From Natronococcus sp. A-GB1 (GTDB lineage: Archaea; Halobacteriota; Halobacteria; Halobacteriales; Natrialbaceae), in assembly GCF_029688845.1 (NCBI RefSeq), contig NZ_JARUKW010000001.1:1-64000 (forward strand): DNA of 64,000 nucleotides. The letters are read 5' to 3'. Each line of letters begins with the position of its first letter. Position 1 is the stretch's first letter. The notes under the pieces were generated by a model. It saw only the letters and a list, made by a program, of their open reading frames with translations, searched no databases and was not told the DNA's origin. Below are positions 41,106 to 54,917 of the stretch, piece by piece. The position numbers and the translations under genes are program-made.

Positions 41106-41251
41106 GGCCGCGTATTGCCAGCTACTCGGGATAAGCGTTGTTCTCGAGGCGCCTCCATACCCACCCCGATCTAAAGGCAAGCCCCGTAAACTCCGCTCGC
41201 ATCCTCGAGAGTTCTATCGAATTTAAGTTCGTGAGGAATGTTCGATACGGT

Positions 41252-42388
41252 ATGTCACAGACTCCGGTCGTCGCCAAGGCGGTACGAACCCCCCAGGGGA
41301 AAGAGGACGGCATCTTCGCCGACGTGCGAAGCGAGGACCTCTCCGTCGCACTGATCGACGAGATCCTCGCCGAGACCGGGCTCTCCGGCGAGGACGTCGA
41401 CGATCTGATGTGGGGCTGCGCCCAGCAACGCGGCGAGCAGGGGAACAACCTGGCACGCGTCATCGCCCTCCTGTCGGAGCTGGGCGAGGACGTCCCCGGG
41501 ACGACGATCAACCGCTGGTGTGCCTCCTCGATGCAGGCCGTGATCTCGGCGTCGGACGCGATCGCCGCGGGTAACCGCGACGTGATCATCGCCGGCGGCG
41601 TCGAGAACATGTCCCGCGTCCCGATGGGCGAGAACACCCACAACGTCCACCCGAGGATGGCCGAGTACTACAACATCGGCGAGCTCCAGATGGGGATGAC
41701 CGCCGAGAAGGTCGCCGAGGAGTACGGCATCAGCCGCGAGGAACAGGACGAGTACGCCGCCCGAAGCCAGCAGCGGGCCACCGAGGCGACCGAGGAGGGT
41801 CGCTTCGACGACGAGATCGTTCCGATCGAAACTGACGACGGCACCGTCGAGGAAGACGAGGGGATCCGACCGGGTACGACGGCCGAAAAGCTGGCCGAGC
41901 TACCGACCGTTTTCAAGTCCGACGGCACCGTCACGCCGGGCAACGCCTCCCAGATCTCCGACGGCGCCTCCGCCCTGCTGATCACCAGCGAGGCCTTCGC
42001 CGAGGAGCACGACCTCGAGATCCTCGCCGAGGTCGGCCAGAACAACGTCGCCGGCGTCGACCCCACCGTGATGGGGATCGGACCAGTGCCTGCGACGGAG
42101 GGGCTGCTCGAGCGCAACGGCCGCGACATCGAGGAGTACGACCTGGTCGAGCTCAACGAGGCCTTTGCCAGCCAGTCGATCTACTCCCGCGACGAGCTCG
42201 GGATCGACCCCGAGAAGTTCAACGTCAACGGCGGGGCGATCGCGATCGGGCACCCGCTGGGGGCCTCCGGCGCGCGTCTGCCCGTGACGCTGATCCACGA
42301 ACTCGGAAAGCGCGGCGGCGGCAGCGGCCTGGCGACGCTATGTGTCGGCTTCGGCCAGGGTGCTGCGATCGAGTTCGAAGTCAACTGA
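41252..42388 (+). CDS. Thiolase (acetyl-CoA C-acyltransferase)
   Basis: A 378-residue thiolase for fatty-acid degradation or acetoacetyl-CoA formation. The catalytic set is complete: nucleophile Cys in NRWCASSMQA (about residue 92), His in IGHPLGASG (about 335) and second Cys in TLCVGFGQGAA (about 365). The start MSQTPVVAKAVRTPQG at 41252 fits the family, and ATTTAAG at 41221-41227 is a TATA box about 28 nt upstream, giving a leaderless transcript. No SCP2-like OB partner gene follows, unlike many archaeal thiolases. Confidence 0.94.
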   Translation: MSQTPVVAKAVRTPQGKEDGIFADVRSEDLSVALIDEILAETGLSGEDVDDLMWGCAQQRGEQGNNLARVIALLSELGEDVPGTTINRWCASSMQAVISASDAIAAGNRDVIIAGGVENMSRVPMGENTHNVHPRMAEYYNIGELQMGMTAEKVAEEYGISREEQDEYAARSQQRATEATEEGRFDDEIVPIETDDGTVEEDEGIRPGTTAEKLAELPTVFKSDGTVTPGNASQISDGASALLITSEAFAEEHDLEILAEVGQNNVAGVDPTVMGIGPVPATEGLLERNGRDIEEYDLVELNEAFASQSIYSRDELGIDPEKFNVNGGAIAIGHPLGASGARLPVTLIHELGKRGGGSGLATLCVGFGQGAAIEFEVN

Positions 42389-42600
42389 GGCGCGGTTCCC
42401 ACCCACTCCGTTCGTTCCGAATCGGCTCGTCTCGAGAAATGCGAAATCGATCGTTTCGCGGCCGAACGAGCGGAGCGAACCGCAACGGGCGGACGACCGG
42501 TAGCGCCACCAGAACGTATTTGGTTTCTTACCCGTCATACTGCAGATATGGTCGAACCGGACTCGCTTCCCACTTCAGCTCCATCCTCGCTTTCCCGTCG

Positions 42601-43602
42601 ATGACGGCGGTGGATCGGCGAACGCTCCGGTGGCGGATGCTCGCGTCGCTCGCGCTGCTCGTGCTCGTCACGGTCGGCTTCGTTGCCGGCGTCTGGGGCG
42701 CGTTCTACCTCGTTCTCGTCTCGTTCGAGGCCGACGGGGCGGCGCTGATCGCGTCGGTAGCGAGCGGCGTTCTCCTGGCCTCTCTCGTCGGCCTCGAGTT
42801 TCTACAGGTGTCGACAGTCGAGCGGTTCGCGGGTGCCACGCCGGTCGCCCGCGACGAGGAGCCCGACCTGTACCGGACGACGACGCGCGTCGCCTCCCAG
42901 CTCGACATCCCGGTCCCGACGATCGCGATCTCCGACAGTCCCGCGCCCGAAGCGCTGGTCGTCGGCTTCAGACGCGACGGGATCCACCTGGTGCTCTCCG
43001 AGGGGACGATCGACGTGCTCGACGACGCCGAGCTCGAGGCGGTGATCGCACACGAGCTGGCACACGTACGGAACAGGGATGCGACGGTGATGACGGCGGT
43101 TTCGGCACCGGTGGTGCTCGCGGCGGGACTGCGGTCGCGCCTTCCCGATCCGAACGACGCCGGGATGGTCGCGGTCGTGGTGCTCCCGCTTGCGCTCGTC
43201 TCGAACGGCGCGTGGGTCGCCGGTCGAACGATCACCGCCGTGCTCGCTCGCGTTCGCGAACACGCCGCCGACCGGGCGGCCGCCGAGGTAACCGGGTCGC
43301 CCGCGGCGCTCGCGAGCGCGCTCGAGACGCTCGACGAGCGGATCGAGGCGACGCCGACCCGGGATCTCAGGTCCGTCGAGGGCGTCTCCGCGCTGTCGAT
43401 CCTCCCGCTCGAGCGCGATCCGGACAGTCGAGCGGTTCGGCTCGGCCCGGACGGCGAGACCGAGCCCTCGCACCTGTGGTTCGATCGCCTCAAGTGGCGG
43501 CTGTTCGTGACACATCCGCCGACGGCCGACAGACTCGAGTCGCTGCGATCGCTCGAGCGCGAGCATCAACGGGGCAACGAACGGGAGCCGACGACAGCAT
43601 AG
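42601..43602 (+). CDS. M48 (HtpX-like) membrane metalloprotease
   Basis: A 333-residue membrane protease that would degrade misfolded membrane proteins. Two N-terminal TM helices (about residues 13-36 and 42-62) are followed by the catalytic domain with AVIAHELAHVRNRD (HExxH, about residue 143-156), then two more TM stretches. The Glu of VREHAADRAAAE is the third zinc ligand. The ATG at 42601 is overlapped (ATGA) by the stop of a possible 18-residue upstream ORF (42548-42604), which may be a leader peptide or chance. Confidence 0.93.
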   Translation: MTAVDRRTLRWRMLASLALLVLVTVGFVAGVWGAFYLVLVSFEADGAALIASVASGVLLASLVGLEFLQVSTVERFAGATPVARDEEPDLYRTTTRVASQLDIPVPTIAISDSPAPEALVVGFRRDGIHLVLSEGTIDVLDDAELEAVIAHELAHVRNRDATVMTAVSAPVVLAAGLRSRLPDPNDAGMVAVVVLPLALVSNGAWVAGRTITAVLARVREHAADRAAAEVTGSPAALASALETLDERIEATPTRDLRSVEGVSALSILPLERDPDSRAVRLGPDGETEPSHLWFDRLKWRLFVTHPPTADRLESLRSLEREHQRGNEREPTTA

Positions 43603-43659
43603 GTGAGCTACGGCGATCCGGACAGGCGATTTACAACGGTTGAGTCCATACGATAGCTA

Positions 43660-43998
43660 ATGAGCAACATCTTGCTGGCGGCAATCATCGGAATTCCGCT
43701 CGTCTGGCACCTCGGAATCACCGCGTTCGTCTACTACGATTCCGGCCGCGTCGGCCTCGAGCCGACGCGGAAGTGGGTCGCGATCACCTTCGCGATCCCG
43801 ATCTTCGGCTTCTTCATCTACCTTTTCGAGCGCAGCGAGCTCGACTACGACCCCGAAAGCGACCCCTACAAGGGTCAGAACTACAACATCCACCCCTCGA
43901 GGGCCGACGACGCGCCGCTGCCCTCGCGAGGCGACGACCGGGAGGGGCCGGACGATCTCGAGGGACCGGACGGGTCGGACTCCGAGCGGGAGCGGTAG
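43660..43998 (+). CDS. Small two-TM protein
   Basis: A 112-residue protein. Two TM helices (about residues 5-26 and 38-54, the second in KWVAITFAIPIFGFFIYLFE) are followed by an acidic cytoplasmic tail rich in Asp, Glu and Gly. The layout resembles phospholipase-D-nuclease-N-like small membrane proteins, but the match is weak. GATTTAC at 43629-43635 is a TATA box 25-31 nt before the ATG. Function is unknown; it does not overlap the eut genes. Confidence 0.65.
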   Translation: MSNILLAAIIGIPLVWHLGITAFVYYDSGRVGLEPTRKWVAITFAIPIFGFFIYLFERSELDYDPESDPYKGQNYNIHPSRADDAPLPSRGDDREGPDDLEGPDGSDSERER

Positions 43999-44003
43999 CG
44001 ACG

Positions 44004-45452
44004 TCAGAACGCGAGCGTCTTGACGACGACGGGAACGCTGTCGTGGCCCGCGATCGGCGCGCCGACGTCGAGGTAGTCGCCGTCCCGGGCTGCGAGTTCG
44101 TCGAGCGCGACGAGGGGACGCTCGCTGCGGCGCTCGAGGAGCTGGCCCAGCGCCTTCGCGCAGTTCTGGCGAACCACGACGACGATCGGGAGCGAGGGCG
44201 GCAACGGCTCGAGCGCCGACGCAAGCGCGTCCGCCACCGAGCCCAGCCGCTCGTACACGAGCGGGCCGACGTCCGCGACCGAGAGGGCGACGGCGTCGAG
44301 ATCGTGGAGGTCGTGGAGCTCCCGAAGCCGTGCGACCGCAGCCTCGAGGGGTTCGCGAAGACGGCTCTCCTCGAGGCCCGCGAGGTCGCCGACGTCGGCG
44401 ACCGGAACGTTCCGAAGCGGCAGCAGGTCGGGCTCGATCGAGATCGTCCGCCCGCTGAGCGTCGTCGACTCCGTCCCGGCGCCGACGACGGTCGCCCGCA
44501 GGTCCTCCGCGGACTCGAGAACGGGCCAGGATCGCACCCGCTCGTGTTCGCGCAGCGCGGCCGCGAGTAGCCCCCCGAGGTCGCCGTGGGCGAACGGGTC
44601 GGCCGGCGGCGAGTCGACGAGCCGGCCGACGCCGCCGCTGAAGACGACGCCGTCGAGGGAGACTGGGTCGGTCGGCAGCTCGCCGATCGCCAGCTCGCGC
44701 GTGAGACGGTCGAACGGCGGAACCTCGAGCAGGTCGACGATCCGATCGGCCATCGCCGCGGCGAGGCCGGCGAGCAGTTCGTCGTCGGGTTCGTCGCCGA
44801 CCGCGAGCGGGAGCTCGAGTGCTTCGGCGAGCGCTCCGGCGGGCGGCGAGATCGAGCCGATGCGTCCGTCGTCGTCGAACCGGACCAGTCGCCCGCCGAC
44901 GTCGAGACAGCGCGTCTCCAGAACCCGACTTTCGCCTCGCTTGCGGCCGTCGAACCGTCCGTCGAAGATCGCGACGTTGGTCGTTCCGCCGCCGACGTCG
45001 ACGTTGGCGACGGTTCCGCCCGTTTCGGCGGCGTGGGCTGCTGCACCGGAGCCCCGACCCGCAAGCACCGCCTCGAGATCCGCACCGGCCGTCGCGGCCA
45101 CGAACCGGCCCGCGTCGGCGGCGACCCGGTGGACGAGCGGTTCGGCGTTCTCCCGGCGCGCCGTCTCGCCAGTGACGATCACGGCGCCCGTATCGACGGC
45201 CGCGGGCTCGAGCCCGGCCGCCTCGAGGTCGCGTTCGACGAACGCGGCGACCCCCTCCACGTCGATCGTCTCGCGATCGAGCAGCGGCGTCTCGCGGACC
45301 GGGCCCCGAAAGACGATCTCGCGGTCGACGATCTCGGGACTCGCCGCCCCGCCGGGTGGCGTCTCGACTCGCAGGCGGCTGACGACGGTGTGTGTCGTGG
45401 TCGTCCCGACGTCGATGCCGACGCTCGTCAGCGATTTCGGATCGGCGTTCAC
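44004..45452 (-). CDS. eutA: Ethanolamine ammonia-lyase reactivating factor EutA
   Basis: A 482-residue ASKHA-fold ATPase that should exchange damaged B12 on EutBC. Motifs seen are VGIDVGTTTTHTVVSRL at the N-terminus (phosphate-1 loop), NVDVGGGTTNVAIF (phosphate-2, about residue 154), VFSGGVGRL (adenosine loop) and VVVRQNCAKALGQLL near the end. Length and motif order match bacterial EutA. Initiation is at GTG 45452, only 6 nt after the eutC stop, so it is third in the eutB-eutC-eutA operon. Rejected alternatives are hydantoinase and diol-dehydratase reactivase, because the neighbours are clearly eutBC. Confidence 0.9.
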   Translation of the reverse strand: MNADPKSLTSVGIDVGTTTTHTVVSRLRVETPPGGAASPEIVDREIVFRGPVRETPLLDRETIDVEGVAAFVERDLEAAGLEPAAVDTGAVIVTGETARRENAEPLVHRVAADAGRFVAATAGADLEAVLAGRGSGAAAHAAETGGTVANVDVGGGTTNVAIFDGRFDGRKRGESRVLETRCLDVGGRLVRFDDDGRIGSISPPAGALAEALELPLAVGDEPDDELLAGLAAAMADRIVDLLEVPPFDRLTRELAIGELPTDPVSLDGVVFSGGVGRLVDSPPADPFAHGDLGGLLAAALREHERVRSWPVLESAEDLRATVVGAGTESTTLSGRTISIEPDLLPLRNVPVADVGDLAGLEESRLREPLEAAVARLRELHDLHDLDAVALSVADVGPLVYERLGSVADALASALEPLPPSLPIVVVVRQNCAKALGQLLERRSERPLVALDELAARDGDYLDVGAPIAGHDSVPVVVKTLAF

Positions 45453-45458
45453 GACCGG

Positions 45459-46265
45459 TCAGGACTCCGTCCGGAACTCGCGGTCGTCCTCGCGGAGGTC
45501 GACTCCGCTGGCCTCGGCGTCGAGCATCTCCCCGATCAGGTCGACGAGCTCGGCGCCGGCCTCGACCGGCGGGAGCCCGCCGTCGTGGATGTTCGAGACG
45601 ACCGACTTTTTGGCCGTCGCCGAGCCGCGCTCGGGGCCGTACACCAGGTACGCGCTCAGGCTCTCGGCGGTCCGGAGTCCGGGCCGTTCGCCGATGAGGT
45701 TCACACAGCAGTCGGCCTCGAGCTCCTCGCCGACGGCATCCATCACGTCGACGCGGCCGAATTCGACGAAGACGGGCGTGCCGACCGAGACACCGCGAGC
45801 CTCGAGCCCGTCGAGCAGCGCGGGCAGGAGCTGCGGGACGTTGGCCTCGACGGCCGACGAGGAGAGCCCGTCGCTGACCACGATCTGAACCTCGGGGCCG
45901 GGATCGCAGTCGCGCTCGAGTCGCTCGAGGCTCTCGGCGTCGAGCTCCCGCCCAAGGTCGGGACGTGCGAGGTACTGGTCCGTGTCCGCGACCCTCGTCC
46001 GGAGCCTTACTAACCCGAACTCCTCGAGCAGGTCGTCGCTCACGCGCGAGTGGACCGCGTCGCGGGCGACGCCGTGGTCGGCCCGGAACTCGAGTAACGC
46101 CTCGGTGGTCGGCCGCGGGCCAGCACGGCCGACGCCGAGTCTGGTGGGGTTTCGCTCGACGATTCGACGGAGCCGCTCGTTGCTCTCGGCGTCGGTGTCG
46201 ATACCGACCTCACTGCCGTTTTCGACTGTCGGTTCGTCAGGATCTGAGTGGGAGTCGGAGGCCAT
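45459..46265 (-). CDS. eutC: Ethanolamine ammonia-lyase small subunit
   Basis: A 268-residue EutC, the light chain of the adenosylcobalamin-dependent ethanolamine ammonia-lyase. The family pattern is clear: LGVGRAGPRPTTEALLEFRA, then DHGVARDAVHSRVSDDLLEE, then QIVVSDGLSSSAVEANVPQL, and CVNLIGERPGLRTAESLSAY. An acidic tail of about 30 residues precedes these, a halophile addition. The ATG at 46265 lies 2 nt after the eutB stop, which shows tight operon coupling. Confidence 0.95.
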   Translation of the reverse strand: MASDSHSDPDEPTVENGSEVGIDTDAESNERLRRIVERNPTRLGVGRAGPRPTTEALLEFRADHGVARDAVHSRVSDDLLEEFGLVRLRTRVADTDQYLARPDLGRELDAESLERLERDCDPGPEVQIVVSDGLSSSAVEANVPQLLPALLDGLEARGVSVGTPVFVEFGRVDVMDAVGEELEADCCVNLIGERPGLRTAESLSAYLVYGPERGSATAKKSVVSNIHDGGLPPVEAGAELVDLIGEMLDAEASGVDLREDDREFRTES

Positions 46266-46267
46266 GG

Positions 46268-47629
46268 TTACGTGAAGATCGTCGGGTCGCCCGCGCGTTC
46301 GGTGAGCCGGCCCTCGAGCCAGAGGTCCATCTCGGCGAGCCACTCGCGGAACGCGGGAGCCGGCCCGAGGTCGAACAGCTCCCAGAGTGCGGCCGCGTCG
46401 TGGTAGCTGTTGGACTGGTAGTTCAGCATGACGTCGTCGCCCATCGGCACGGTAATGAAGTAGTTCGCTCCCGCCGCGGCGAGCAGGACGGCGAGGTTCT
46501 CGATGTCGTTCTGATCGGCCTGCATGTGGTTCGTGTAGCAGGCGTCGATCCCCATCGGAATTCCGTGAAGCTGGCCCATGAACACGTCCTCGAGGCCGGC
46601 GCGGATCACCTGGCGGCCGTCGTAGAGGTACTCCGGGCCGATGAAGCCGACGACCGTGTTGACTAGGAAGGGGTCGTAGCGCTTCGCGAGGCCGTAGCAG
46701 CGCGCCTCGAGGGTGAGCTGATCGACCCCTTCGTGGGCGTCGCCCGACAGCTCGGCGCCCTGTCCCGTCTCGAAGTACATGACGTTCGGTCCCGAGGAGA
46801 CGCAGCGACGCTGTGCGAGGTCGTGGGCCTCGTCGAGCAGGTCGACGTCGACGCCGAACTCGTCGTTGCCCGCTTCGGTACCGGCGAGGCTCTGGAAGAC
46901 GAGATCCGCGGGGGCACCTTCCCGGATGGCGTCCATCTGGGTGGTGACGTGGGAGAGACAGCAGTTCTGGGTCGGCACGTCCCACTCCTCGATGAACTCG
47001 TGGGTCGCCTCGAGAATTCGCGTCGTCGTCTCGACGCTGTCCTGGACCGGATTCACGCCGATCACGGCGTCGCCGGCGCCGTAGGAGAGCCCCTCGCGCG
47101 TCGCGTCGATGATGTTCGAAACGTCGTCGGCCGGATCGTTCGGCTGCAGTCGAAACGAGAGGGTCCCGGCCTCGCCGACCGTCGTGTTACAGCGTGCGGA
47201 TACTTCCATTCGCGAGGTGACCAGCGCCAGGTCGAGGTTCGACATGAGCTTCGTCACGGCGGCGATCATCTCGCTGGTGAGGCCAGGGCGGATCGCCGCG
47301 ATCTCGCGCTCGCCCGTTCCCGTGGCGACGAGGTGCTCTCGCAAGTCGGCGACGGTCCAGTCTTTGATCTCGTCGTAGATCGGCTCCCGGACCGCCTCCT
47401 GAATGACCCGCGTCACCTCGTCCTCGTCGGCGGGAACGACCGGGTTCTCCCGCAGCGTCTCGAGTCGCATCCCCGCCAGCGCCCGCTTGGCGGCAACCCG
47501 CTCGGCGTCCGAGTCGGCCGCGATCCCGGCGAGTTCGTCCCCGGTCTTTCCTTCGTTGGCCTTGGCGAGGACCTCCACGACGGAGTCGAAGCGATCCCCG
47601 GCGGCTGGCGTCGTAGTTTGGATTGCCAT
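46268..47629 (-). CDS. eutB: Ethanolamine ammonia-lyase large subunit
   Basis: Splits ethanolamine into acetaldehyde and ammonia with coenzyme B12, together with EutC. It is 453 residues, equal to bacterial EutB. Recognised segments are LANEGKTGDELAGI-type N-terminus, ALVTSRMEVSARCNTTVGEA, EGLSYGAGDAVIGVNPVQDS, QNCCLSHVTTQMDAI, FQSLAGTEAGNDEFGVD and NHMQADQNDIENLAVLLAAA. The start MAIQTTTPA at 47629 is preferred; an in-frame ATG at 47671 would add 14 residues. First gene of the eut operon. No shell-protein, eutD, eutE or eutG gene is nearby, so acetaldehyde must be handled without a microcompartment. Confidence 0.96.
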   Translation of the reverse strand: MAIQTTTPAAGDRFDSVVEVLAKANEGKTGDELAGIAADSDAERVAAKRALAGMRLETLRENPVVPADEDEVTRVIQEAVREPIYDEIKDWTVADLREHLVATGTGEREIAAIRPGLTSEMIAAVTKLMSNLDLALVTSRMEVSARCNTTVGEAGTLSFRLQPNDPADDVSNIIDATREGLSYGAGDAVIGVNPVQDSVETTTRILEATHEFIEEWDVPTQNCCLSHVTTQMDAIREGAPADLVFQSLAGTEAGNDEFGVDVDLLDEAHDLAQRRCVSSGPNVMYFETGQGAELSGDAHEGVDQLTLEARCYGLAKRYDPFLVNTVVGFIGPEYLYDGRQVIRAGLEDVFMGQLHGIPMGIDACYTNHMQADQNDIENLAVLLAAAGANYFITVPMGDDVMLNYQSNSYHDAAALWELFDLGPAPAFREWLAEMDLWLEGRLTERAGDPTIFT

Positions 47630-47778
47630 GTATTCGCTATCGGACGGTACGTCGGGAAGATGCTTCACCATTTGTCGAACGTTACCAAACCACAGTTGCT
47701 GCAATGAAAGCGACGGCGCGTTCGGCGATCGGGATGGGCGATGGCCACGGTTTTCTACGACGAACCGACAGCGGAGGT

Positions 47779-48951
47779 ATGAAGCGAGCGACGGTCTGGA
47801 CGGTTGCGATCTTCCTGTTCGTCCTCGGGGACGCGATGGCGCTGCAGGCGAGGGGACCGATCCTCTCGAGTCTCGAGGCGACGTTCGGCGTCTCGGAGGC
47901 CGCGCTCGGGCTGGTGGCGCCGGCCGGCACCGCGGGCTTCGCCGTCGCCGCCGTCGCGACGGGGCTTCTCGCGGGACGACTTCGAATGCGGTGGGCGCTG
48001 TTCGCAGGTGCCGCGGGCGTGATCTGTGCCCTGGTCGCGATGGCGGCCGCGCCCGTCTACGCCGTGTTCCTGCTCGCGTTGCTCGCTCAGGGCGGCGCCG
48101 CGGGCGTGTTCCGCGGTGTGGATCGGGCGGCCCTGAGCCATATCCACTCGGCCAACCGCGGGCGGGTGTACATCGCCTACGCGCTCGCCTGGGCCGTCGG
48201 CGCCGTGCTCGGACCACAGCTGGTCACCGGTGTCCTCGCGATTGCGGACTGGCGCGCCGTCTTTCTCGTTCTCGCGGCACTCTTCGTTCCGGTCGCGGTC
48301 GTCGCCGCCCGGACCGAACTCCCCTCGATGGAGGCCGAGCGGTCGATCTCGGTCGATGCGCTCCGGGCGCTGCTCGGCCGACCCGCCGTCGTCGGCGCCA
48401 CCGTCGGGATCCTGTTTACCGGCGCCGTCGAGGGGATCGTCTTCACCTGGCTCGTCTACTATGCCGAGGGGTTCTACGGGACGGGGACGGCCAGCCTGCT
48501 GCTGTCGACGTACCTGCTCGCGTACATCCCCGCTCGAACGGGCTACACGCTGCTCGTGGATCGAGTTCCCTACCTCCTGTTGATGCTGGTCGCGACCGTC
48601 CCGGCGATCCCGGCGTTCGCGATCGCGTTCTCCGGGATCACCGGCCCCGTCCTCTTCGCGGCCGTCTTCGTCGCGGGCGCCGGGCTCTCGAGCTGTTTCC
48701 CCGCGCTGTCGGCCTATGCTGTCGAGGCGGCTCCGGAGTACAGCGGTCCGATCAACGCCCTCACGACTGGGGCAACGTACGTGGGGATCGCAGTCTCGCC
48801 GACCGTCGTCGGCGTCCTGGCCGAGGTGTACGGGCTGAACCGGGCGATCTGGCTCGTAATCGGCTTTGCGGTACTACTCTCGTCGACGATCGCGGCGACG
48901 TGGCTCTGGACGGGAACGCCGGAGGCGCCGACCGTCGACGTCGCCGCCTGA
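47779..48951 (+). CDS. MFS transporter
   Basis: A 390-residue major facilitator with about 12 TM helices. The first loop LLAGRLRMRWALFAGAAG carries the basic A-motif position, and the centre (RTELPSMEAERSISVDALRA) is a charged loop between the two halves. It is divergent from eutB with 149 nt between the starts, so it could import ethanolamine or export a product, but that is position-based inference. GGAGG ends only 1 nt before the ATG at 47779, too close for a normal Shine-Dalgarno site. Confidence 0.9.
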   Translation: MKRATVWTVAIFLFVLGDAMALQARGPILSSLEATFGVSEAALGLVAPAGTAGFAVAAVATGLLAGRLRMRWALFAGAAGVICALVAMAAAPVYAVFLLALLAQGGAAGVFRGVDRAALSHIHSANRGRVYIAYALAWAVGAVLGPQLVTGVLAIADWRAVFLVLAALFVPVAVVAARTELPSMEAERSISVDALRALLGRPAVVGATVGILFTGAVEGIVFTWLVYYAEGFYGTGTASLLLSTYLLAYIPARTGYTLLVDRVPYLLLMLVATVPAIPAFAIAFSGITGPVLFAAVFVAGAGLSSCFPALSAYAVEAAPEYSGPINALTTGATYVGIAVSPTVVGVLAEVYGLNRAIWLVIGFAVLLSSTIAATWLWTGTPEAPTVDVAA

Positions 48952-48969
48952 CGACCGCAGAAACGAGGT

Positions 48970-50646
48970 TCAGTCGTCAGCTGGCGCAGCGTTCAGCTGG
49001 TCGTCGGAGACGGTACCGTCCTCGTTCCAGCCCCGTTCTGCGTAGTACTCGTCGAGTGCGGCGTCGAACTCGGGTAGCTCGTATGGCAGGCTGTCGTCCT
49101 CTCGGTCGAAGCCGCGCTGGTTGTTGAAGTGGCGCTCGAGCGCGACGACTCGGCCGCCGACCGCCAGTAACTCCTCGTAGTCGGCGTCGAGCAGGGTCGA
49201 CAGACGGTCCTCGTCGACGAAGTCCCGCGAGAACTTACAGAGGACGGCGCTGTCCTTGATCGCGTTGACGTTCTCGAGTTCGATCACTTTTGGGGGTTTG
49301 TCGTCGAGCCCCTCCTTCTCGAAGGCCTTCTCGGAGTCGACCAGCGGGTACTCGTAGGGGTAGAACTCGGCGTACATGTGGTCGGCGCCGCGGTTCGAGG
49401 TGGCGAAGGCAAGTCCCTGCCCGTTCAGCGTGCGGCCGTCGTGGGCGGGGAACTCGAGGCCCTTGACCGACCAGTTCTCGACGCCGAGGTCGTCGTGGAC
49501 GCGGTCGATCCCCTCCGCGAGGTCGTCGCCGACGCCCTCACGGTGGGCGATCTTTTCGACGAGGTCGTGGATCAGCTCGACGTTGCCGAACTCGTCCTCG
49601 CTCGCGAGATACGCGGCGATCGTATCGCCACAGGAGATCGTGTCCAGTCCGTACTCGTCACAGAGCTTGTTCGACTGCATGACGTCGACGATGTCGTCGA
49701 CCCCGGAGTTCGGGCCGAACGCCATCACGGTCTCGTACTCCGGCCCCTCGGTCTCGAGGCCCGACTCCTCGTCTCTGGTGGGGAGCTTGCAGGCGAACGC
49801 ACACGCGGAGCAGGTCCCTTTCTTGTACTTCTTCTCCTCGACGCGGTCGCCGCTGACGCCCTCGGCGCCCTCGAAGGAGAGCTCCGAGAAGTACCGCGTC
49901 GGCAGGGCCTCGACGGTGTTCGCGAACTCAGTCATCGAGGACGTCCCCTGTCGCTTCATGATGTGATCCGACTGGGCGGCCTCGCTGTGGACCTCCATCT
50001 GCAGCGGCGGGATCTCGACCTCGTGAGTCGAGTCGCCGTCGAAGGTGATCGCCTTCACGTTCTTCGCTCCCAGGACGGCACCCAGTCCGCCGCGGCCGAA
50101 CGCGCGCTCCTCGGAGGTCATGATCGAGGCGAACCGGACCTCGTTCTCGCCGCCGGGGCCGACGACGACGGTGTGGTCGGACTCGAGACCGTGCTCGTCC
50201 TCGATGTACTCGCAGGTCTTGGAGACCGTCGCTTCCTCGAGCTCCGGTACCGCCTCGAACTCGACGCCCTCGTCGGTGACGTGGACGATCACGAGTTCGT
50301 CGCTGACACCGGTGACTTCGACGGCACTGTAGCCCGTCCCCGTGAAGTTCCGCGAGAGGAACCCGCCGGCGTTCGAGGAGAGCAATCCGCCGGTGAGCGG
50401 GGAGACGGCGGTCGCCGACATCCGCCCCGTGAAGCTCATCTGGGAGTGCTGAAGCGGCCCCGTCGCGAGGTAGAGCCGGTTGTCGGCGCCGAGAGGATCG
50501 GCGTCGAAGGGGACCCGATCGTGGGCGAGTTTCGTCGCGAGCGCGCGCCCGCCGATGAACGACTCGAGGTCGTCGTCGACGTCCTCGGTCGTCGAGGAGC
50601 GCTCCTCGAGATCGATCGAACACAGCGGTCCGTGAACGTGTTTCAT
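48970..50646 (-). CDS. Aldehyde:ferredoxin oxidoreductase (tungsten enzyme family)
   Basis: Oxidises aldehydes to acids with ferredoxin as acceptor, using tungstopterin and one 4Fe-4S cluster. It is 558 residues. Typical parts: FIGGRALATKLAHDRVP, LSSNAGGFLSRNF, ERAFGRGGLGAVLGAKNVKA, the cluster motif CSACAFAC (about residues 280-287) and the fourth cluster Cys in DSAVLCKFSRD (about 481). Gaps in the N-terminus are normal. The start MKHVHGPL at 50646 is chosen; an ATG nine codons upstream is possible. It converges on the MFS gene and lies 3 kb from eutB; acetaldehyde from EutBC is a plausible substrate. Confidence 0.92.
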   Translation of the reverse strand: MKHVHGPLCSIDLEERSSTTEDVDDDLESFIGGRALATKLAHDRVPFDADPLGADNRLYLATGPLQHSQMSFTGRMSATAVSPLTGGLLSSNAGGFLSRNFTGTGYSAVEVTGVSDELVIVHVTDEGVEFEAVPELEEATVSKTCEYIEDEHGLESDHTVVVGPGGENEVRFASIMTSEERAFGRGGLGAVLGAKNVKAITFDGDSTHEVEIPPLQMEVHSEAAQSDHIMKRQGTSSMTEFANTVEALPTRYFSELSFEGAEGVSGDRVEEKKYKKGTCSACAFACKLPTRDEESGLETEGPEYETVMAFGPNSGVDDIVDVMQSNKLCDEYGLDTISCGDTIAAYLASEDEFGNVELIHDLVEKIAHREGVGDDLAEGIDRVHDDLGVENWSVKGLEFPAHDGRTLNGQGLAFATSNRGADHMYAEFYPYEYPLVDSEKAFEKEGLDDKPPKVIELENVNAIKDSAVLCKFSRDFVDEDRLSTLLDADYEELLAVGGRVVALERHFNNQRGFDREDDSLPYELPEFDAALDEYYAERGWNEDGTVSDDQLNAAPADD

Positions 50647-50753
50647 ACTGAGAAGGGTATCATCGATCACCACAAAACAGTTCGGTTCTCGCTTGCGGAG
50701 GGACGGGCGACTGTACCGATGTCGAAGCGCGGCTTCGATCGCGGAAGAGGCGC

Positions 50754-51011
50754 CTACCGTTCCAGCGAGGTGCCGTCGGGAAGGTGTAACTCGTCGTCCA
50801 GAACGACCTGCAGGCGATCCGTCGCAAACAACCGATCGATCTGGTCGTGCGTGAACGTGCCGTCACAATCGTCGCCGACGAAGGTCACCCGTTCGGGCGT
50901 CCGTTCGACGACGGTCGCGAGCGCGCTGCCGTTCCGGTAGTGGTATCTGATCGTCGTTCCGAGGTGGAGGGTCTCGGCGGTCACGCCGAGGGAAGTTCCG
51001 TGTGGGACCAT
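50754..51011 (-). CDS. Small beta-rich protein near AOR
   Basis: An 85-residue soluble protein: MVPHGTSLGVTAETLHLGTT, then IRYHYRNGSALATVVERTPE, VTFVGDDCDGTFTHDQIDRL, ending LHLPDGTSLER. It is probably a small beta barrel. I do not recognise the family. The ATG at 51011 is taken as start because GAATTATG about 25-30 nt upstream would serve as the TATA box of a leaderless transcript; an extended frame starts at 51062 in AT-rich DNA. It is not an obvious tungsten-cofactor protein. Confidence 0.5.
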   Translation of the reverse strand: MVPHGTSLGVTAETLHLGTTIRYHYRNGSALATVVERTPERVTFVGDDCDGTFTHDQIDRLFATDRLQVVLDDELHLPDGTSLER

Positions 51012-51191
51012 ACCGTGTTCAGGCTCGAGAGGTACATAATTCTTGTGCACTAATAGTTGCAATTATAATACTAATTCGAGATCAGATCCGCTCTTCGATG
51101 TAATAGCCAATTAAAACGGCTCTCTTAGCCGCATCTCACCATAATATTCGGTAACGCCACAGTCAACTGTATAGATACGTCTCGGGCGAAA

Positions 51192-52769
51192 TTAGCTAAA
51201 GAGGCCGATACCGAGCCCACTGCTCGAGTTGTTCGAGGCGTTCGACGGGTCCGAGGCGTTCTCGTCGCCGCCGTCGTTGGACGCATTCGGCGTCACCCCG
51301 TCGGCAGTCCCGTTGGACTCGTTCGCAGTGTCGTTATCCTCGTTCTCGAGGACCTCGTCGTCACTGGTTTCGTTGGGAGCCATGTCGTCGGTCTCGTTAG
51401 CGGAGACGTTCTGATCGGGTTCATCGCCAGCGGTTTCGTTTTCCGGGCCGTCGTCGTCGTCACCGTTAGTGATCGTCTCGTTATCGTCGTCCCCGTTGAC
51501 CACTGTGTCGTCCTCACCATTCTCGTCATCCGCGTCGTCCTCGTCGTCTATCTCGTCCTCATCGTCATCCGTGCCGTCGTCATCATCCTCGTCGCCCGCG
51601 TCGTCGTCATTTCCCTCTTCGTCCTCCTCACCGTCTTCGTCGCCATCTCCGTTCTCGTCACCTGCATCCTCTTCTCCCTCGTCTTCGTCATCGTCCTCTT
51701 CGTCCTCCTCGCCATCGTCGTTATCCCCGTTTTCGTCACCTACGTCGTCGTCATCGTCTTCGTCATCCTCTTCCTCGCCGCCTTCGTCATTTCCCTCTTC
51801 GTCCTCCTCGTCTTCGTCGGCCTCGTCCTCATTTCCCGAATCGTCCTCCTCGTCGGTGTCATCGTCGTCATCTCCGTTTTCGTCGTCAGCCGGATCATCA
51901 TCATCATCGTCGTCGGCTGGGTCGTCGTCCGGCTCGTCGTCATCTGGATCTTCGTCAACCGGCTCGTCGTCAACCGGCTCGTCGTCAACCGGCTCGTCGT
52001 CAACCGGCTCGTCGTCAACCGGCTCGTCGTCATCGTCGTCGTCAACCGGCTCGTCGTCATCGTCGTCGTCAACCGGCTCATCGTCATCGTCGTCGTCAAC
52101 CGGCTCGTCGTCATCGTCGTCGTCAACCGGCTCGTCGTCATCGTCGTCGTCAACCGGCTCGTCGTCGTCATCAACTGGATCCTCGTCATCGTCCGGCTCA
52201 CCAGCATCGTCGTCCTCCTCTTCTGGCTCGTAGGACTCCTCGCCCGGATCGCCGATCTCGAGTTCGTACGACGCCGTTCCCTCGCAGTTGCTCAGCGGGA
52301 ACGAGTAGACGGCACTCTCGCCTGACTCGGGACTCGACTCGTCCGCGAAGTGGATGCTCGCGAGTTCGTCGCCGTCCTCGTCGTAGACCCGCGCCTCCAT
52401 GTCGACGGTGATCTCCTCGTCGCCGACGTTCTCGAGTTCGACGTGGACGTTACACTCGTCGCCCGGCGGGTCGTCCGCCCAGGTGAAGGTGTGACGCAGG
52501 GCCTCGAGGGTGTCGCTGGCGGCGCCGGAGATGATGACCTCGCCGTCGATCGACTGGTCCTCGTACTGGCCTTGTTCGTCCTCGGCCTCCTCGTCGTCGA
52601 CATCGTCATCGTCGTCGGCGTCGTCCCACTCCTCCGGTCCGTCGCCGTCCCTGGCCGACTCGTTGTCCGATCCGTTCTCCTCGTCGTCCTCGATGGCGCT
52701 ACATCCCGCCAGGATGGCCGAAAGTGATACCCCCGCAGCCGTGCTGAACTCGCGCCGGTTTAGATCCAT
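51192..52769 (-). CDS. Tat lipoprotein with a long acidic repeat region
   Basis: A 525-residue surface protein. The N-terminus NRREFSTAAGVSLSAILAGC is a Tat signal with lipobox Cys (about residue 23). Residues about 70-185 form a folded domain (EVIISGAASDTLEALRHTFT to YELEIGDPGEES). The rest is almost all Asp, Glu, Asn and Gly, including EPVDD and EPVDDDDDD repeats (about residues 205-270). Downstream Asn/Thr/Ser sequons (NETI, NETS, NASN) suggest glycosylation. The gene is real; the extensive forward-strand ORF opposite is a repeat shadow. It may act as a hydrated stalk or ion buffer at the cell surface. Confidence 0.82.
   Translation of the reverse strand: MDLNRREFSTAAGVSLSAILAGCSAIEDDEENGSDNESARDGDGPEEWDDADDDDDVDDEEAEDEQGQYEDQSIDGEVIISGAASDTLEALRHTFTWADDPPGDECNVHVELENVGDEEITVDMEARVYDEDGDELASIHFADESSPESGESAVYSFPLSNCEGTASYELEIGDPGEESYEPEEEDDDAGEPDDDEDPVDDDDEPVDDDDDDEPVDDDDDDEPVDDDDDDEPVDDDDDDEPVDDDDDDEPVDDEPVDDEPVDDEPVDDEPVDEDPDDDEPDDDPADDDDDDDPADDENGDDDDDTDEEDDSGNEDEADEDEEDEEGNDEGGEEEDDEDDDDDVGDENGDNDDGEEDEEDDDEDEGEEDAGDENGDGDEDGEEDEEGNDDDAGDEDDDDGTDDDEDEIDDEDDADDENGEDDTVVNGDDDNETITNGDDDDGPENETAGDEPDQNVSANETDDMAPNETSDDEVLENEDNDTANESNGTADGVTPNASNDGGDENASDPSNASNNSSSGLGIGLFS
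51961..52155. repeat. Coding tandem repeats: 4 x 15 bp then 5 x 27 bp
   Basis: 51961-52020 is four perfect copies of GGCTCGTCGTCAACC. 52021-52155 is five copies of a 27-bp unit that begins with the same 12 bases (one copy has a single mismatch at 52080). All units are in frame and encode EPVDD and EPVDDDDDD of the lipoprotein, so length changes by slippage would not break the gene. Confidence 0.9.
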
Positions 52770-52931
52770 GTGACTCTCGTAGTGACCGCCCGCTGCTTGG
52801 CTCTCGATACGCGTCCTCTGGGTCAGAGGTTCGGAGCTCCCCCGTGTTTAGCTCGTCGGATCAGCCCAGAAGCGTTCAGCGTAGTGATATCATCGAGAGG
52901 TGGTATTCCTTCTGCAGGCACTGTCAACCGC

Positions 52932-54917
52932 TCAGGAAGAAACCGGATCGATCCGGTCCTCGCGGTCTGCCTCGTAGATCCGCTCGACCCGATCCTCGAA
53001 GCGGTCGAGGATGACCCGTCGCTTCTTCTTCATCGTCGGCGTCAACATGTCGTTCTCCTCGGTGAACTCCCGCGGGACGAGTTCGAACCGTTTGATCGTC
53101 TCGTGTTTCTCAAAGTTCTCGTTGACCTCGGCCACCGTCTCACCGACGTATTCTCGGACGCGCTCGTCGTCGCACATCGCCTGCGGGTCCTCGGGGAGGT
53201 CGATCCCCTGTTCGTCGGCCCACTCGCGGACGTGGTCCGTGTTGGGGACGAGCAGGGCGCCGACGAACTTCTCGCCGTCGCCGACGACCATACACTGCTC
53301 GACGACCTCGCTGGCCGCGAACGCGTCCTCGATCGGGCCGGGCGCGACGTTCTTGCCGGTCGAGAGGACGAGGATCTGCTTGACCCGATCTCGGAACTCG
53401 ATGTAGTCGTCGGGACGGAGGTGAACGATATCGCCGGTTCGGAACCAGCGGGTGCCGTCGTCGTCCTCGAGGAACGACTCCGTCGTCGCGCCGGGCTTGT
53501 TCCAGTACCCCTGGGTGACGTTCGGGCCGCTGACGAGCAGTTCGCCGACCTCGCCGGGATCGTCGAACGTCTCCCCCTCGACGAGCGAGTCGTCGATCCG
53601 GACGTCGACGCCGGGAAGCGGCGGCCCGATGGTTCCGATCTCGGGCGCCTCGGGTGGGTTGACCGAGACAACGGGAGCGGTCTCGGTGAGTCCGTACCCC
53701 TCGTAGATCGGCAGTCCCATCGCGTGGTACAGCGTACAGAGTTCCTTCGAGAGGCTCCCACCGCCGCTGATCAGGAGCTCGATCTCGCCGCCCAGCGCCT
53801 CCCGAACGTTCGAGAAGACCAGTTTGTCCGCAAGCGACTGCTTCGCGCTGAGGACGGGGCCGGGATCGTCGCTCTCCTGGTACTCGACGCCGACGTCGGT
53901 CGCCCACTCGAAGATCCGCTTTTTGACCCCCGACTCGCTGGCCTGCTCGCGGATCGTGTCGTAGATCTTCTCGTAGACGCGGGGGACGCTGGTCGCCGTG
54001 TCCGGCTGTACCGTCCCGAAGTCCTCCTTGAGCGTGTCGGTGCTCTCCGCGTAGGCGACGCAGGCGCCGCTGGCGAACAGCAGGAAGTGTCCCGACGTGC
54101 GCTCGAAGACGTGTGCCAGCGGGAGATAGGAGACGGACTGAACGGTCTCGTCGATGACCGGCAGCTCGTCGTCCTTGTCGGGGCGCGGCCCGTAGCGCTT
54201 GCGGACCTGGCTGACGTTCGACCGGAAGTTTCGGTGGGTGAGCTGGACGCCCTTGGGCTGGCCCGTCGTCCCGCTCGTGTAGATGAGGCTGGCCAGGTCG
54301 TCCATGTCGGGCGCGTCGAGCCACCCCTCGTAGCGGTCGAGGTCAAACGTCTCTTCGCCCCTATCGTGAACCTCTGCGAGGGTCAGGACGTCGTCGCGCT
54401 CGTCGTACCCCTCGAGGCGATCCATCGAGACGATGAACTCGAGGTCGAGGTCGTCCTCGACCTCGAGGACGCGCTCGACCAGCCGTTCGTTCTCGACGAC
54501 GACCGCGGTGGCGTCGGGATCGTCGAGCAGGTACCGAACCTGGTTGGGCGAGGAGCTCTCGTAGACGGTCGTGATAACCGCGCCCGCCGAAAGCAGTGCG
54601 AAGTCGGACTGGGCCCACTCCATGCGGGTGTCGGCGAAGATGCCGACGCGATCACCCTGCTCGACGCCAAGGTCGCGAAAGCCCGCCGCGAGGTTGCGGA
54701 CGACGTTTCGCATCTGCGTGTAGGAGATCGCCCGGAACGCGTCGGGATCGGCAGGCTCGAGGACCGACTCGGTCAGCGAGCGGTCGTAGATGCCGCCCTT
54801 GTACCGCTGTGCCGGTCGGTTCGGGTGGCGCTCGACGGCGTCGTCGAACATCCGACCGAGCGTCGTTTCGCCGGTGACCTCGTCCTCGTATTCTCGTTCG
54901 GCGTCCCGCCAGTGCAT
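52932..54917 (-). CDS. Long-chain acyl-CoA synthetase (AMP-binding)
   Basis: A 661-residue ANL-superfamily enzyme that adenylates and thioesterifies fatty acids. A3 motif YTSGTTGQPKG (about residue 214), A5 YEGYGLTETAP (about 400), A7 WFRTGDIV (about 490) and A8 RVKQILVLSTGKN are all present, and the Lys near the C-terminus lies in MLTPTMKKKRR. The long variant (over 600 residues) fits the FadD15-like long-chain type. It starts at ATG 54917, and the 162 nt before the Asp-rich lipoprotein hold no other gene. Together with the thiolase at 41252 it suggests fatty-acid use. Confidence 0.94.
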   Translation of the reverse strand: MHWRDAEREYEDEVTGETTLGRMFDDAVERHPNRPAQRYKGGIYDRSLTESVLEPADPDAFRAISYTQMRNVVRNLAAGFRDLGVEQGDRVGIFADTRMEWAQSDFALLSAGAVITTVYESSSPNQVRYLLDDPDATAVVVENERLVERVLEVEDDLDLEFIVSMDRLEGYDERDDVLTLAEVHDRGEETFDLDRYEGWLDAPDMDDLASLIYTSGTTGQPKGVQLTHRNFRSNVSQVRKRYGPRPDKDDELPVIDETVQSVSYLPLAHVFERTSGHFLLFASGACVAYAESTDTLKEDFGTVQPDTATSVPRVYEKIYDTIREQASESGVKKRIFEWATDVGVEYQESDDPGPVLSAKQSLADKLVFSNVREALGGEIELLISGGGSLSKELCTLYHAMGLPIYEGYGLTETAPVVSVNPPEAPEIGTIGPPLPGVDVRIDDSLVEGETFDDPGEVGELLVSGPNVTQGYWNKPGATTESFLEDDDGTRWFRTGDIVHLRPDDYIEFRDRVKQILVLSTGKNVAPGPIEDAFAASEVVEQCMVVGDGEKFVGALLVPNTDHVREWADEQGIDLPEDPQAMCDDERVREYVGETVAEVNENFEKHETIKRFELVPREFTEENDMLTPTMKKKRRVILDRFEDRVERIYEADREDRIDPVSS

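Follow-up and report, generated by a model that had tools for sequence, protein, structure and literature searches.

Do the ethanolamine genes of a haloarchaeon and the aldehyde oxidoreductase gene beside them form one pathway? In Natronococcus sp. A-GB1, genes for ethanolamine ammonia-lyase (eutB, eutC) and its reactivase (eutA) lie close to a gene for an aldehyde:ferredoxin oxidoreductase (AOR). The initial annotation took the AOR for a dedicated, tungsten-dependent second enzyme, which would oxidize acetaldehyde to acetate, reduce ferredoxin and replace EutE and a shell. We analyzed the locus within a 64,000-nt window (NZ_JARUKW010000001.1, assembly GCF_029688845.1, positions 1-64,000), in the genome as a whole and in related genomes. 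Features are collected in Table I.

Table I. Features of the eut/AOR locus, in window coordinates
Feature	Position	Strand	Assignment	Evidence	Remark
Thiolase	41231..42388	+	acetyl-CoA C-acyltransferase	NCBIfam TIGR01930; synteny	resident flank
112-aa protein	43660..43998	+	small, probably membrane protein	synteny in eut-free genomes	resident flank, eutA side
Missing segment	43999..47774		eutACB and upstream region	blastn	missing at same site in eut-free relatives
eutA	44004..45452	-	EutBC reactivase, 482 aa	Pfam EutA 2.8e-130, 436 bits, model 2-474/475	
eutC	45459..46265	-	ethanolamine ammonia-lyase small subunit, 268 aa	Pfam EutC 8.6e-82, 274 bits	start ATG
eutB	46268..47629	-	ethanolamine ammonia-lyase large subunit, 453 aa	Pfam EutB 8.5e-203, 674 bits	start ATG
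eutB-upstream element	47662..47712	-	putative promoter/operator, 51 bp	profile match	conserved
MFS	47779..48951	+	MFS transporter	Pfam MFS_1	locus resident, present also in eut-free genomes
AOR	48970..50646	-	aldehyde:ferredoxin oxidoreductase	AFOR_N and AFOR_C	locus resident
102-aa protein	50754..51062	-		no Pfam match; synteny	frequent AOR neighbor with or without eut
Acyl-CoA ligase	52932..54917	-	AMP-forming long-chain acyl-CoA ligase	Pfam AMP-binding; synteny	resident flank, AOR side

All three eut genes are intact, and the Pfam models EutA, EutB and EutC are each covered almost entirely by the window proteins. EutB and EutC score above their NCBIfam cut-offs (for EutC, that of an equivalog model); EutB aligns end to end with the solved bacterial EutBs 2qez and 3abo, and EutC matches the solved EutC 3any. 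EutB retains R160, Q162, N193, E287, F329 and D362 (numbering of 3abo), the substrate-binding residues of E. coli EutB. The genes follow one another in the order eutB-eutC-eutA with intergenic gaps of 2 nt (eutB/eutC) and 6 nt (eutC/eutA). Coordinates, gaps and domain matches thus all agree with the original description of a tight operon encoding full-length subunits, and eutBCA is probably transcribed as a single unit from a promoter region of its own.

The genome (4.5 Mb, 99.96% complete) encodes no BMC shell protein detectable with PF00936, for which an E. coli control was positive; the lack of a shell, initially noted for the locus, therefore extends to the whole genome. Among its five PF00171 proteins, three of which were run against NCBIfam, no EutE-type protein was recognized; one is ProA and four are aldehyde dehydrogenases of ordinary length. 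The expectation that no shell/EutE set lies elsewhere in the genome is accordingly borne out for the shell. A gene for an ATP:cobalamin adenosyltransferase is present. Since EutBC and its reactivase EutA are complete, a shell is lacking and this adenosyltransferase is present, shell-less adenosylcobalamin-dependent cleavage of ethanolamine by the window proteins is likely. The genome also contains six AOR-family paralogs, not one, so that together with the four aldehyde dehydrogenases acetaldehyde would have many possible takers.

The window AOR comprises both AFOR domains, and its CxxCxxxC motif, fourth Cys, and catalytic Glu and His are conserved in an alignment with Pyrococcus furiosus AOR (1aor). 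This enzyme is the closest solved relative (E=3.3e-79, 270 bits), alike in sequence family, cluster cysteines and catalytic residues; Haloferax volcanii WOR83 (9q1t), of the same sequence family, scores 221 bits. From general enzyme knowledge, AOR activity on acetaldehyde is possible. Two AOR copies of another haloarchaeal family (f14) carry a single in-frame stop, reflecting either decay or sequencing error (L193, G183:C1:137162-138793; L197, G137:C1:812527-814197).

The coordinates confirm that a divergent MFS gene and then the AOR gene follow eutB. MFS lies 149 bp from eutB and is convergent with AOR. The AOR gene shares the eut strand, yet in the window and throughout its genus the opposite-strand MFS stands between it and the operon. 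A dedicated ethanolamine importer might be suspected in MFS; this assignment was rejected, since MFS holds the same site where eut is missing (L120/L150, L121/L149, L123, L127).

Comparison with eut-free Natrialbaceae provides a similar picture for AOR. Locus L150 (G098) contains the thiolase, 112-aa protein, MFS, AOR, 102-aa protein and acyl-CoA ligase genes in the window order, minus eutACB, and eut-free L149 (G017) contains thiolase, 112-aa protein, MFS and AOR. In blastn alignments of the window with both loci the MFS-AOR stretch is unbroken and the flanks match, with the eut segment (Table I) unmatched; against L150, window positions 47775-50646 (MFS and AOR) and 43660-43940 align at about 79-81%. 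In place of eutBCA, 378 bp separate the 112-aa protein and MFS genes in L150, and 101 bp in L149. Five further loci (L151, L152, L153, L154, L155) are empty sites without MFS, the locus is also found without eut in G046, G100, G109, G015, G045 and others, and in G100 eut is located on a different contig.

The distribution of the two genes follows the same lines. While eutB is found in 19 of 125 Natrialbaceae genomes (including 9/9 of the window's genus), AOR matches (E<=1e-120) are found in 106, about 99 of them with at least 72% identity and thus orthologs. AOR is independent of eut, as it is matched in 18 of the 19 eut-positive and 88 of the 106 eut-free genomes; orthologs are present in about 81 of the latter, and every one inspected has it at the corresponding locus. 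As the thiolase/112-aa/(MFS)/AOR/102-aa/ligase locus exists without eutBCA in most relatives, AOR is best regarded as a near-core gene of the family and a resident of the locus, where it would have a job of its own independent of eut. Because it occupies the same spot in relatives without the operon, adjacency does not support a joint pathway. Thiolase, AOR and long-chain acyl-CoA ligase remain close to one another across Natrialbaceae with or without eut (window 41231-54917), which hints that the resident AOR may oxidize larger aldehydes, fatty ones for example, en route to acyl-CoA. A predicted 525-aa protein (51192-52769, minus strand), half of it Asp/Glu, with DDDDEPVD-like repeats, is encoded between the 102-aa protein and ligase genes; several relatives have a similar acidic ORF at this place.

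Across the order, EutB is found in 38 of 392 genomes. Of the 19 eut-positive Natrialbaceae, 13 have an AOR gene no more than about 3.2 kb from eutB; these 13 represent four genera and comprise the whole of the window's genus (nine genomes) together with G016, G044, G104 and G107. In f14, AOR is near eut in three of eight genomes (G170, 113 bp; G197, 153 bp; G190, 2.3 kb). In G044, G170 and G197, AOR is directly upstream of eut on the same strand, with a spacing of 113-153 bp. In five other families (f4, f5, f6, f7, f17), none of 16 eut-positive haloarchaea has an AOR near eut within about 9 kb to either side of eutB, or less at contig ends, and none was found in the 63 bacterial eut loci among 80 loci fetched. 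The search for eutBC beside AOR in haloarchaea, suggested with the initial annotation, hence succeeded in two families and failed in five.

A 51-bp element upstream of eutB is conserved in Natronococcus, where MFS lies upstream, in other Natrialbaceae and in f14. Within the 64 kb of the window its core pattern occurs once, at eutB, and it never occurs in 100 shuffles; no match above threshold is located upstream of the window AOR. In G044, G170 and G197 the element sits between AOR and eutB. Clear scores were also obtained at eut loci without a nearby AOR (L015, L016, L018, L019, G285, G380, G146), all outside the profile-building set. Retention at eut loci with or without AOR, and the single window match at eutB, point to a eut promoter or operator that is independent of AOR. 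In G094 the element contains a clean dyad, TTGGTA-N5-TACCAA; a dyad is seen in some members, and the element is possibly the operator of some regulator. No riboswitch or RNA of another class was identified upstream of eut in an Rfam scan of positions 43900-51200 (E<=0.5).

In a EutB tree (short search, with SH-aLRT as the only support), haloarchaeal EutBs form one clade apart from bacterial EutBs (support 99). The closest bacterial EutB found, from Alkaliphilus serpentinus, is 64% identical to that of the window. Two tandem EutB paralogs occur at L025, L026, L030, L033 and L037, loci of Alkaliphilus-like and other bacteria; those of L025/L026 are about 62-64% and 55% identical to window EutB. 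Fifteen Natrialbaceae EutBs, including the window's, are a clade (support 99) whose members are all AOR-linked except G100 and the contig-truncated G036, which has the same flank as the window on the eutA side. EutBs of the thiolase/AOR locus (Natrialbaceae, G190, G170/G197 and the thiolase-linked G146) fall in one 25-row clade (support 94), which also holds the unlinked EutBs of G338, G418, G250, L013, L015 and L016. Genus g42 has eut at the locus in two genomes; in five, more distant EutBs are encoded outside it. The eut-linked AORs form no clade in the AOR tree, most grouping with eut-free sisters from the same locus. G044 groups with eut-free G046, G107 with G109, and G104 with G098/G100/G101/G106; the linked f14 AORs group with other f14 AORs. 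A sister-pair comparison for convergent substitutions in eut-linked AORs yielded 36 shared columns versus 43 in a mirror control, and thus no excess.

A second kind of haloarchaeal eut cluster was observed at L023:9941-20083, and also at L022, L165, L185, L138, L139, L144 and, in part, L137. Here eutBCA is accompanied by genes for an ABC importer, a GS-like ligase and an HTH_10 regulator; among solved structures, the ligase is closest to a glutamate-methylamine ligase (PDB 9qur). Streptomyces is known to have a gamma-glutamylethanolamide synthetase (PMC6529630), and a haloarchaeal GlnA-2 acts as a glutamate-putrescine ligase (PMC8394153). By gene content these clusters are candidates for an ethanolamine import and gamma-glutamylation route, and fit nitrogen scavenging. 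Those other than L137 share the eutBCA order with the window operon but differ in having no AOR, a dedicated-looking importer, an amine-ligase-like protein and EutBs on other branches; the window operon, conversely, is without importer, HTH_10 and ligase neighbors and has AOR nearby. Their ABC binding protein has no match in the window genome by a single sequence query run without a positive control.

The reading that best accommodates these observations, to which we assign a probability of about 0.72, is that of an ethanolamine ammonia-lyase that works without a shell in nitrogen scavenging, beside a resident AOR with a job independent of eut. Adenosylcobalamin-dependent EutBC, with EutA as its reactivase, would act on ethanolamine in the open cytoplasm, releasing ammonia and acetaldehyde. 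Ammonia would probably be the main prize, as a nitrogen source, and acetaldehyde would be cleared by one or more general oxidizers among the six AORs and the four aldehyde dehydrogenases; the AOR of the locus may be one of them. Of the original interpretation, a complete EutBC/EutA set without a shell stands, while the locus AOR as its dedicated partner is not supported. That partnership is unlikely: the gene is near-core in its family, with an ortholog at the same locus in eut-free relatives, an opposite-strand gene splits it from the operon in the window's genus, it lacks the eut element, it is not near eut in any of the 16 genomes of other families, linked AORs are marked by neither a clade nor shared substitutions, and five further AORs or the four aldehyde dehydrogenases could serve instead. 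It has in its favor intact catalytic residues and the kinship with P. furiosus AOR, the lack of a recognized EutE, and the adjacency in four Natrialbaceae genera. It is the recurrence of linkage in f14 and the close same-strand spacing in three genomes that keep a functional link alive; the pair may have been held together by selection, and the locus AOR may have a role in ethanolamine use.

A somewhat better, though still doubtful, alternative overlaps with the nitrogen-scavenging explanation and differs from it mainly on history. The cassette would be an old fixture of the locus in an ancestor of several haloarchaeal families, lost in most lineages, with AOR as a shared, non-dedicated acetaldehyde scavenger kept alongside by mild functional benefit. 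The well-supported 25-row clade of locus EutBs agrees with such descent, but the unlinked EutBs within it do not, and the split in g42 points to gene movement. It is very unlikely that the operon is cryptic, or that it supports no growth on ethanolamine and is devoted only to detoxification or to the turnover of phospholipid headgroups. No dedicated importer was seen, MFS being resident and the ABC binding protein unmatched in the query described above, which would suit this alternative; against it, eutB is retained by every genome of the genus, and the upstream element is conserved in those inspected.

A precedent for ethanolamine ammonia-lyase in nitrogen scavenging is found in Acinetobacter baumannii, where a shell-less EutBC supports ethanolamine as sole nitrogen source, EutE and a shell were dispensable in a heterologous test, and growth occurred without EutA (PMC9426561). 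Both systems lack a metabolosome; the archaeal operon, which differs in keeping EutA, probably encodes a functional shell-less ethanolamine ammonia-lyase of a comparable kind. With the eut metabolosome operons of Firmicutes and enterobacteria it shares EutA, EutB and EutC homologs, and differs from them in its eutB-eutC-eutA order and in having no shell protein and no recognized EutE. Full-text searches returned no open paper on haloarchaeal EutBC function, or on AOR with ethanolamine.

The locus illustrates that an adjacency which looks conserved may derive from a resident locus: once eut-free relatives were compared, the chief argument for a new pathway fell away. Ethanolamine ammonia-lyase is now mapped over the haloarchaea, in at least two kinds of eut neighborhood, and the conserved upstream element makes regulation by ethanolamine or B12 testable. 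It is improbable that in Natrialbaceae and f14 AOR has taken on acetaldehyde oxidation for ethanolamine breakdown without a shell; were the link true, adenosylcobalamin-dependent cleavage would be followed by a tungsten enzyme with a gain of reduced ferredoxin, an unusual B12-plus-tungsten route.
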